39,513 bases of DNA from Candidatus Nitrosotalea bavarica (lineage in GTDB: Archaea; Thermoproteota; Nitrososphaeria; Nitrososphaerales; Nitrosopumilaceae), in NCBI RefSeq assembly GCF_900167955.1, contig NZ_FUYK01000014.1, positions 1-39,513 of the forward strand. The letters run 5' to 3'. Shown piece after piece: positions 25,225 to 28,003 of this stretch. The first letter of the stretch is position 1. Each line of letters opens with the position of its first letter. Both the position numbers and the translations under genes were made by a program. The notes under the pieces were generated by a model. That model made no database searches. It was not told the DNA's origin and saw only the letters and a program-made list of their open reading frames with translations.

Positions 25225-25743
25225 TTATAGTCGGAGCTTTGTATAGAAATCAAGAAATGCTTCAAGATCTATTGGCTCATCCAAAATCTCTGCCATCTCT
25301 TCTGCCCTATTTGCTACCAAAATACATTGTTGCCTAAAATTATCCTCGTTAAATTCTATAACAATTATTTTTGCGTTGACGTCTTGAACATCATTTAACA
25401 ATCCAGCACTAACCAAAAGTATAGATTGCAATCCTTTTCCCTGCGCATACCCTATTTCTTGATTAATCAGACTTGAATTAATGAAATTTGTTGTAGAAAT
25501 TAAAACAAAACAGACTGATGAACTAATTGTTTCTTTGATGTGAGTTGAAATAAAACTACCATGAGATTCATTATCTACCAGATGTGCCCCAAATCCTTTT
25601 TCATAAAGCACGAATTCTAAGATACGTGCCTTTTCATGATCCTCTTTACTATAACAGACAAATACCTTAAATTTTCGTCTTATTTTTTCTTGTTTTTCCA
25701 AGTTATTGGGATTCAATTCGTACTTGCTCCATTTCTGTAACAA
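25225..25743 (-). CDS. TIR-domain protein
   Basis: 172 residues, essentially one TIR domain (about 25-140) with a short helical tail. Seen are box 1 FKVFVCYSKEDHEKA, a middle segment with SHIKE-type character (FISTHIKETISSSVCFVLIS), and the helix NSSLINQEIGYAQGKG, in which Glu96 sits where catalytic TIR domains have their NAD-cleaving glutamate. Prokaryotic TIR proteins are often NADases or cyclic-ADP-ribose producers in defence; others are scaffolds. No effector such as a SIR2 or SLOG protein is beside it. A TTG start at 25743 overlaps the upstream zinc-ribbon gene by 41 bp; a TTG at residue 10 is an alternative. Confidence 0.78.
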   Translation of the reverse strand: MLQKWSKYELNPNNLEKQEKIRRKFKVFVCYSKEDHEKARILEFVLYEKGFGAHLVDNESHGSFISTHIKETISSSVCFVLISTTNFINSSLINQEIGYAQGKGLQSILLVSAGLLNDVQDVNAKIIVIEFNEDNFRQQCILVANRAEEMAEILDEPIDLEAFLDFYTKLRL

Positions 25744-25998: not shown

Positions 25999-26313
25999 TC
26001 AGATTACGCCAACTTCCTGCATCGTAATCATGCCGTTGTCATCAACTATCTCTTTGATCTCAGGTAGAACCTTTTCGAGTTTTTGTAGTTCATCTATTGC
26101 TTCGATAACAAGTGGCATGTTGACAGATATGCCTTCTTGATGAATGTCAGAATTTCCTCTTTTACCATAGCCTGATACCCCCGTCCAAGCAGTGGCACCA
26201 GATATTGATCCTTTTTTCAAGATTTCAAGTATCAGGACATGTACACGTTTTCCTCTTACAGTATCGTTCTTTTTGATTCGTATGACAAGTGACCACATTT
26301 TCATGGTTCTCAT
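25999..26313 (-). CDS. DUF190 protein (fluoride-operon partner)
   Basis: 104 residues of the DUF190 family, a PII-like fold: WSLVIRIKKNDTVRGKRVH, then ILKKGSISGATAWTGVSGYG, then PLVIEAIDELQKLEKVLPEI. DUF190 genes are commonly next to crcB/fluC, and its ATG overlaps the fluC stop (ATGA). It is presumed to modulate the fluoride channel or response, but its biochemical role is not established. It is the last gene of the riboswitch-controlled operon. Confidence 0.87.
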   Translation of the reverse strand: MRTMKMWSLVIRIKKNDTVRGKRVHVLILEILKKGSISGATAWTGVSGYGKRGNSDIHQEGISVNMPLVIEAIDELQKLEKVLPEIKEIVDDNGMITMQEVGVI

Positions 26314-26711
26314 TTTAATCCCTCACTAACTATCGCGGTTACCAGTGCTTTTCCTCCAAATATTGCACCAAGCGACAGTCCAACATTTGTAATCACATTG
26401 AGTGCAATCATAGAATATTGTTTGTTATCTATCATGTTTGATGATTCCAAGGCAAATGAAGACATTGTAGTAAAGCTACCGCAGAAACCTATTGCAGCTA
26501 GTAATGTATATTTTTGATCAAGATTCCATTGTGGTGATAATACTGCAAATGCACCTAGTATGAAACTTCCAATGACATTTACAATTAATACATTTACAGG
26601 TAATGCACCAAGGATTAATGGTGATTTTGTAATCCCATATCGGAGAAATGTTCCGAAAAGTCCGCCTACTGCAAGAAATGCTATTTCAATTCCCTTCATA
26701 GGTATGATCAT
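26310..26711 (-). CDS. crcB: CrcB/Fluc fluoride channel
   Basis: 133 residues, four transmembrane helices. Fluc signatures are clear: GGLFGTFLRYG near the N-terminus, NVIGSFILGAF in TM2, and GFCGSFTTMSSFALE in TM3, which carries the polar track and the Na+/F- pore residues. Fluc proteins are dual-topology dimers that let fluoride leave the cell. A single gene suggests a homodimer. ATGA overlaps occur with the gene before (26708-26711) and after (26310-26313), so all three genes are translationally coupled. A fluoride riboswitch heads the operon. Confidence 0.93.
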   Translation of the reverse strand: MIIPMKGIEIAFLAVGGLFGTFLRYGITKSPLILGALPVNVLIVNVIGSFILGAFAVLSPQWNLDQKYTLLAAIGFCGSFTTMSSFALESSNMIDNKQYSMIALNVITNVGLSLGAIFGGKALVTAIVSEGLK

Positions 26712-27880
26712 TTTTCATCAAATCTGTCTGCCCAGTGTTTTCTTGCCTCATACTGGAATGATGGTGGTGTGCTGTTGTCTACTCCTCTCTTGAGTGCAGC
26801 TTTTGTCGTTCTACTGCTCCACCAGAAAACACCTATAGCTATTACTACTGCAAATCCTGCCATCGAATAGATAACCTGAGCAGAATAATTTCCTGTCGAG
26901 TTTATTCCACTGCCCTGTGGTGCTTGAGGGCTAGAACCAAAGTATTCAACGCCATTTATGTCTGCCACTGCCACATAACCGTCGATTTGTATGCTGGCAG
27001 AGCCTGCTCGTTCAGTGTAGCTTACTGGATAATCCACGTCTGCATTAAGATCAGCATTTTTAACAGTGTTTAACATGAGTCCCTCGCTTATGTTGCTCTC
27101 ACCAGTAGCGTATGTCGAAATGGTTATTTTTTGTCCCTTGTACCCAAGTGAATTAGTTTCTACAAGTGTATATGCAGGATCAAACAAGTGTTGCCATTTT
27201 GATATGGGATCACTCATGAGATCGTTTGATGACATTAATGGAATTTCAAATAGATTCTCTGCATTAGACCCTTTTATCTTGCTGTAAAGATCAGGGAATT
27301 GTTTTTTTATAAAATCAATCGGAGAGTTGATGTCAAACTGTCCATAATTTGAAATGTTTACCAGTACTGGATCCTGTATAGTCAGCCCCCTCCACTGGGT
27401 ATCAAGAATGGCTGCACTATCGCCACTTGCTGGTCTTAGCACATAGTTTGATACAGTTGGAATAAATGTTATTTTATAATCGATGTGGGTTTCAGTATCA
27501 GTTGTATACAGTGTTGCATAATATGTAATGTCAACGTCCGTAATATTTGCGCCACTCTTGAGTTCTTCTATATTTTCAGAAGTAAGACTTTTGACAAGTG
27601 ATTGCTTTATCGGATCAGACGGGCTAAGGTAAAATGTCATGGAGGCGTTTTTACCATTTAACATATTTTTTATCTCTCCGCCATTAGGATAATCAATTGC
27701 ATATGTCCTTTCAAATTGAAATGATGGTTTTGCAGTAGCAGATGTCGTGCTGAGTTGTGCAGCAAAATCTACTGCACTTACAGGAGCTATGAATCCTGTT
27801 ATTATGATAACTGCAAATATTATTGAATAGACTAGATTTTTGTACCAGCCCAATTTTTGTTTTTTATTTTTTGTGTTCAT
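26708..27880 (-). CDS. Unknown anchored membrane protein, first gene of the fluoride operon
   Basis: 390 residues. An N-terminal signal/anchor (NLVYSIIFAVIIITGFIAPV) is followed by an extracellular domain of about 280 residues rich in beta strands and with several N-glycosylation sequons. One C-terminal transmembrane helix (about 331-352, YSMAGFAVVIAIGVFWW) and a basic cytoplasmic tail of about 40 residues follow. I do not recognise the family. Its stop overlaps the crcB start by 4 bp, and its own leader contains the riboswitch, so its expression should rise with fluoride. The start ATG 27880 has AGGT six nt upstream. Confidence 0.75.
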   Translation of the reverse strand: MNTKNKKQKLGWYKNLVYSIIFAVIIITGFIAPVSAVDFAAQLSTTSATAKPSFQFERTYAIDYPNGGEIKNMLNGKNASMTFYLSPSDPIKQSLVKSLTSENIEELKSGANITDVDITYYATLYTTDTETHIDYKITFIPTVSNYVLRPASGDSAAILDTQWRGLTIQDPVLVNISNYGQFDINSPIDFIKKQFPDLYSKIKGSNAENLFEIPLMSSNDLMSDPISKWQHLFDPAYTLVETNSLGYKGQKITISTYATGESNISEGLMLNTVKNADLNADVDYPVSYTERAGSASIQIDGYVAVADINGVEYFGSSPQAPQGSGINSTGNYSAQVIYSMAGFAVVIAIGVFWWSSRTTKAALKRGVDNSTPPSFQYEARKHWADRFDEK

Positions 27881-27882
27881 TT

Positions 27883-27912
27883 GTCTACCTATTTAATTTC
27901 CATTAGGTAGAC
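27883..27912 (-). promoter_or_regulatory. RBS-sequestering hairpin (riboswitch expression platform)
   Basis: On the minus strand, GTCTACCTA (27904-27912) and TAGGTAGAC (27883-27891) are perfect 9-bp arms around a 12-nt loop. The second arm contains AGGT (27887-27890), six nt before the ATG at 27880, so the hairpin would hide the ribosome site. The GTC of the first arm (27910-27912) is also the 3' end of the riboswitch pseudoknot strand, making the two structures mutually exclusive. Confidence 0.75.
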
Positions 27913-27971
27913 ATTATCAGCACCTTTCTTGGGCAGTTTAGGAGTTTTATTCCAAGGCTAATGTCATAGCC
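27906..27971 (-). ncRNA. Fluoride riboswitch (crcB motif)
   Basis: Read on the minus strand: stem GGCT (27968-27971) with AGCC (27956-27959); its loop ATGACATT; a 15-nt insert that can form GGA/TCC; TAAACT (27935-27940); stem GCCC (27931-27934) with GGTGC (one bulged U); TGAT; then AATGTC (27910-27915), which pairs exactly with GACATT (27960-27965) of the first loop. Order, conserved bases (AUG, AAACU, UGAU, CUAC) and pseudoknot match the fluoride aptamer known from Thermotoga petrophila. The gene context (crcB and DUF190) agrees. The insert before AAACU is the main difference. Confidence 0.85.
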
Positions 27972-27994: not shown

Positions 27995-28003
27995 CAAATA
28001 AAG
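27995..28003 (-). promoter_or_regulatory. TATA box of the fluoride operon
   Basis: CTTTATTTG on the minus strand is centred about 27 nt before position 27972, so transcription should begin right at the first base of the riboswitch stem (27971). This supports the riboswitch boundaries. Confidence 0.5.

Follow-up and report, generated by a model that had tools for sequence, protein, structure and literature searches.

Work by Baker (2012) is reportedly the reference for the fluoride riboswitch, or crcB motif. To our knowledge, the mechanism of switching has been worked out for few archaeal riboswitches. The crcB motif was reported in bacteria and archaea from the outset, and formate-hydrogenlyase targets were noted in 2010 (Weinberg 2010, PMC2864571). 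A translational fluoride riboswitch has been demonstrated in hyperthermophilic archaea, as Speed 2018 is cited in PMC11077080. PMC11077080 calls the constant stems of the aptamer P1 and P3 and puts J1/2 between the two, and a hairpin is given for 31% of crcB RNAs in the R2R paper (PMC3023696).

The leader RNA described here lies on an archaeal contig of 39,513 nt, analysed as a whole and referred to as the window; all features located by window coordinates are on the minus strand. Both the riboswitch class and the optional hairpin are known already, and the element is common in its own lineage. Of the leads obtained, the islands with several switches and TFB (general transcription factor B) genes in sister genomes are the most interesting.

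Aptamer, inserted hairpin and transcript start

The Rfam fluoride model (RF01734) matched positions 27980-27901 over its full length (model 1-64) with 37.5 bits and an E-value of 5.2e-07 (cmscan, 39.5-kb window), 3.5 bits above the gathering score of 34 bits, and no other Rfam family reached its own cut-off in the window. Repeating the search on the local stretch only gave an E-value of 2.7e-09, and the 1.55-Mb genome contained this single copy. The modest score is probably due to the insert between P1 and AAACU. P1 (27956-27971) was read as a GGCU AUGACAUU AGCC hairpin in which 27971-27968 pair with 27959-27956, two further A-U pairs could lengthen the stem, and the loop provides the 5' pseudoknot strand GACAUU (27965-27960). 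The exact complement of this strand, AAUGUC (27915-27910), completes a 6-bp pseudoknot. P3 (27920-27934), supported by the Rfam match and by folding, pairs 27934-27931 with 27924-27920 and leaves U27922 bulged, and the AAACU, UGAU and CUAC bases were all in place. The leader folded at -27.9 kcal/mol (z = -5.2 against dinucleotide shuffles), a value that, like the other RNA folding energies given here, ignores pseudoknots. Homologous leaders showed compensating changes in the pseudoknot, which appeared as GACATT/AATGTC, GGCATT/AATGCC and GGCATC/GATGCC.

A first-pass annotation had proposed a fluoride riboswitch with the complete crcB aptamer order, an exact 6-bp pseudoknot, both stems and one bulged base in the second, and had named a covariance-model search and a comparison of related leaders as checks. 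The structural details were all recovered; the Rfam match was significant, and the pairing in related leaders was kept through compensating changes. On these sequence grounds, the element is a genuine fluoride riboswitch and adds a new member to a known class.

A TATA-like box (CTTTATTT, 27996-28003) precedes the aptamer. Across 92 leaders of the order, the comparison set, which includes this one, the strongest upstream A/T signal fell at -30 to -26 from the first P1 base; transcripts should therefore begin at or beside the aptamer, and the annotation, which had the TATA box set the start at the first aptamer base, was right in kind. Its assignment of the host to the ammonia-oxidising archaea also agreed with the genome, which encodes an archaeal AmoA (354 bits). 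The aptamer lies in the 5' UTR of a three-gene fluoride-resistance operon that begins 20 nt downstream and encodes a 390-aa membrane protein, CrcB and a DUF190 protein with 4-nt overlaps. The riboswitch had been placed ahead of crcB, which is correct, but crcB (PF02537, 82.8 bits) is the second gene and not the first.

The insert occupies 27939-27955 and contains the mini-hairpin P2, in which GGA (27953-27951) pairs with UCC (27943-27941). This stem had been predicted within a 15-nt insert; the stem stands, and the length is 17 nt when counted from P1 to AAC, or 14 nt in the Rfam alignment. Inserts of at least 12 nt were present in 79 of the 92 leaders. Pairs were scored by anchoring the first six and the last six bases, with no structure fitting. 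Among 66 distinct inserts of 12-35 nt, pair 3 was formed in 65, pair 4 in 63 and pair 5 in 58, the last against 26.3 expected by shuffling; the types found for pair 5 were C-G (25), A-U (21), U-A (6) and G-C (3), plus G-U. Because pair 5 is kept through several pair types and above the shuffled level, the predicted hairpin is real as judged by covariation, and the annotation's extra mini-hairpin gains the support of pairs 3-5.

The same annotation had called the mini-hairpin unusual, a view that does not survive comparison: the insert occurs in those 79 leaders, similar hairpins can be read in several Sulfolobales-like leaders and in one other thermoproteotal family (group names putative), and the R2R paper gives the 31% cited above (PMC3023696). 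No such hairpin was found in the Bathyarchaeia-like leaders examined (group name likewise putative). In a contig scan for GGCGATG aptamers carrying inserts of 8-32 nt, which gives no fair measure of insert frequency in bacteria, nearly all of the matches listed were due to chance. A matching pseudoknot was present in two of those listed only, an Omnitrophota MAG, whose insert is unpaired, and the thaumarchaeal MAG 13_1_40CM_4_38_7, in which the hairpin is present. The naming of the constant stems as P1 and P3 suggests an optional, omitted P2 at the site of the insert.

Expression platform and proposed switching

Right behind the aptamer, a 10-bp hairpin (27882-27913) was predicted at -13.4 kcal/mol (z -5.35), in which UGUCUACCUA (27913-27904) pairs with UAGGUAGACA (27891-27882). 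The 3' pseudoknot strand shares four of its six bases with the 5' arm, and this putative OFF-state hairpin and the pseudoknot therefore exclude each other; the 3' end of the hairpin lies 1 nt ahead of the AUG at 27880. The hairpin contains AGGU (27890-27887), 6 nt ahead of the AUG, a short, 4-nt match to the 3' end of the 16S rRNA of the same genome (GGATCACCTCCT). The arrangement is that of a platform sequestering the Shine-Dalgarno sequence, with a hairpin (27913-27882) that covers the ribosome-binding site and is exclusive with the aptamer. The U-run of a terminator-type platform was absent, as the stem is followed by an A-rich tract.

The helix competing with the pseudoknot was found in 78 of the 79 P2-bearing leaders, compared with 2-13 (about 7) in 20 shuffles of the downstream bases; such shuffle tests ignore the shared ancestry of the leaders, although separate genera show several of the same pair types. 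When bases of the loop, the 3' strand and the downstream copy were read as triplets, A-T-A (36), G-C-G (34), G-T-A (5) and A-T-G (2) were obtained, and all 77 scored triplets kept both alternative pairings, with G-U counted. Swapping the downstream parts between two types lowered the pairing from 8.3/7.9 to 6.8/5.2. The start codon nearly touched the hairpin in most leaders. The 13 leaders lacking P2 have a GCGAGCGG-like element further downstream, whose predicted partners are the P3 5' strand and the conserved CCGC. This alternative OFF pairing, with the element before the start codon, was observed in L045, L050, L066, L072, L076, L078, L088, L101, L106, L107, L110 and L111.

The AUG next to the switch opened a long gene in 40 of 61 scorable leaders and an ORF of fewer than 60 codons in 21. 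For 12 of these 21, the next gene (crcB, TFB, AsnC or TIR) followed at an exact 4-nt overlap, and in most others it began -17 to +3 nt from the stop. The coupled short ORFs argue that the switch acts on translation and that its effect is passed on by coupling. In genome G262, the leader ORF before crcB closely matches residues 1-16 of the 390-aa protein (MNTKNQKQKLGWYKNL), as though all of the 390-aa gene except its start had disappeared. An A-rich coding start (MNTKNKKQK-like) is common to unrelated proteins and leader ORFs (27846-27880, L062:600, L032:4467 and L033:1916); perhaps such starts are retained as RNA sequence that leaves the site of initiation open.

We consider it highly probable, with strong support from the comparison of leaders, that the element is a fluoride riboswitch turning translation ON by exchange between the pseudoknot and the ribosome-site hairpin. 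Transcription would start at the aptamer. Without fluoride, AAUGUC and CUACC would pair with UAGGUAGACA just before the AUG, and the resulting 10-bp hairpin would hide the SD-like AGGU and crowd the start codon, leaving the operon untranslated. Fluoride and Mg2+ would hold AAUGUC in its pseudoknot pairing with GACAUU of the P1 loop and so free the GACA further downstream, which repeats the loop-strand sequence, and the ribosome could start at 27880; crcB and the DUF190 gene would then be translated by coupling across the 4-nt overlaps, and CrcB would export fluoride from the cell. The aptamer, both alternative pairings, their covariation and the operon overlaps are read directly from the DNA, and fluoride binding, translation as the controlled step and the ON direction are what we infer.

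The riboswitch could be real but transcriptional, acting by leader termination or RNA polymerase pausing as in Bacillus cereus; the best-studied fluoride riboswitches are transcriptional, and the OFF hairpin is long enough for a terminator stem. However, no U-run follows it, and the 30 nt that come next consist of A-rich coding sequence, which speaks against termination. The distance of 1 nt from the AUG, the near-touching start kept in most leaders and the short leader ORFs coupled to the following gene point the same way, and transcriptional control appears unlikely. Translational control remains our preferred reading.

The two other alternatives considered concern the RNA itself and are less probable still. 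A score barely over the cut-off and the U bulge in P3 would be compatible with an aptamer that has decayed and lost ion binding, but every conserved position and the exact 6-bp pseudoknot are present, the element is linked to crcB, and it has been kept with compensating changes in 28 of the 37 genomes of the genus; a fluoride-blind aptamer is accordingly the least credible of the explanations weighed here. The linker could be merely variable and the mini-hairpin in it due to chance: in this genome it has only three pairs, and the flanking pairs 1, 2 and 6 were formed no better than in shuffles across the clade. Against this, the 66 inserts, despite their range of lengths, retain pairs 3-5 in the form of several pair types, and the Sulfolobales-like leaders have similar hairpins, so that a chance origin is very improbable.

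Linked genes and multi-riboswitch islands

The first gene of the operon (26708-27880) encodes the 390-aa protein, with an N-terminal signal/TM helix, an extracellular domain and a C-terminal TM helix, and the product is probably membrane-anchored and extracellular. It had no match in Pfam, NCBIfam or PADLOC and no sequence relative in the PDB, and its AlphaFold model (pLDDT 72) gave no significant PDB structure match. Of 400 genomes of the order, 276 encoded homologues. Those 66-87% identical are the riboswitch-linked ones, with one more (G345) at a contig edge, and a second copy elsewhere in the same genome (G000:C15:285933-287048, L261) is 40% identical; the protein is thus a paralogue that the fluoride operon has recruited. 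Sister genomes have in this position a protein of about 500 aa with a cupredoxin domain (PF00127) or a short ORF. The cupredoxin-domain membrane protein stands between riboswitch and crcB in several of them, for example at L062:600-2135.

The CrcB/Fluc fluoride channel (133 aa, 26310-26711; PF02537 cut-off 32.9 bits) and the DUF190 protein (104 aa, 25999-26313; PF02641, 72.9 bits) each start with a 4-nt overlap on the preceding stop. After a gap of 255 nt, the next gene downstream (25225-25743) encodes a 172-aa TIR_2-domain protein (PF13676, 38.3 bits), for which weak ThsB-like PADLOC matches were recorded. In two sister genomes, G183 and G279, relatives of this protein (cluster c8) are preceded by fluoride riboswitches, a hint that its role may lie in stress and not in defence against phages.

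RF01734 matches were found in 85 of the 400 genomes of the order (71 above the cut-off) and in 22 of its 66 genera. One group of leaders (at L036-L042, L044, L060 and L087) drives a 368-aa sodium/proton-antiporter-like protein in place of CrcB, often with a UspA-like protein following it.

Two genomes of the same genus contained islands of 20-25 kb with multiple fluoride riboswitches: seven in G183 (C37, 54-75 kb; L032-L033, 54369-75414) and eight in G279 (C57, 26-48 kb; L034-L035, 22812-47715). These were the only Rfam matches there, and five of the 15 scored below the gathering score, with E-values up to 8e-4. The genes behind them encode CrcB-DUF190, ferredoxin, AsnC-like, TIR, MFS and DUF6659 proteins and three TFBs, besides a six-gene operon resembling complex I or group-4 hydrogenase (NADHdh, 49-kDa, 20-kDa and Proton_antipo_M families). 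The islands also contain an enolase or enolase paralogue, a HAD phosphatase, UspA and a second DUF190; enolase is a classical target of fluoride. In the tree, two of the three island TFBs are sisters (97/95) and the third is apart or unplaced. TFBs are numerous in the genus, and the island TFBs are therefore extra copies. As a tentative possibility, an entire stress regulon of the genus may share the fluoride riboswitch as its control element; fluoride would then release the translation of an alternative TFB, which would reprogram transcription. A TFB as fluoride riboswitch target was not found in the literature searched, nor was a description of such an RNA-to-initiation-factor cascade, and searches combining fluoride with Thaumarchaeota, ammonia-oxidising archaea, TFB or Nitrosotalea returned nothing on the present system.

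The pairings of both states, the start codon and the coupled leader ORFs are all legible in 79 leaders that show compensating changes, and the mechanism can therefore be tested directly in vitro. The findings suggest that fluoride is a stress met by ammonia-oxidising archaea, and linkage to the switch nominates the 390-aa membrane protein, the cupredoxin-domain protein, the TIR protein and TFB as candidate fluoride-resistance genes.

Comparison with described fluoride riboswitches

Compared with the RF01734 class, the RNA has the same aptamer order, pseudoknot, conserved bases and crcB context, and it differs in nothing within the aptamer core; it has in addition the optional hairpin. The 31% of crcB RNAs with such a hairpin share the aptamer and the extra element, the position of which in those RNAs is presumed (PMC3023696). 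In the same source, the crcB RNA of Acidothermus cellulolyticus (Figure 6) is likewise a proposed ON switch in which the ligand frees the Shine-Dalgarno sequence; that RNA is bacterial, and the likeness drawn here is one of proposed mechanism. The riboswitch of Speed 2018, as its citation in PMC11077080 conveys it, comes from another lineage, the hyperthermophilic archaea, and resembles the present one in kind of control: both are archaeal, and the translational, fluoride-inducible control demonstrated there is that predicted here.
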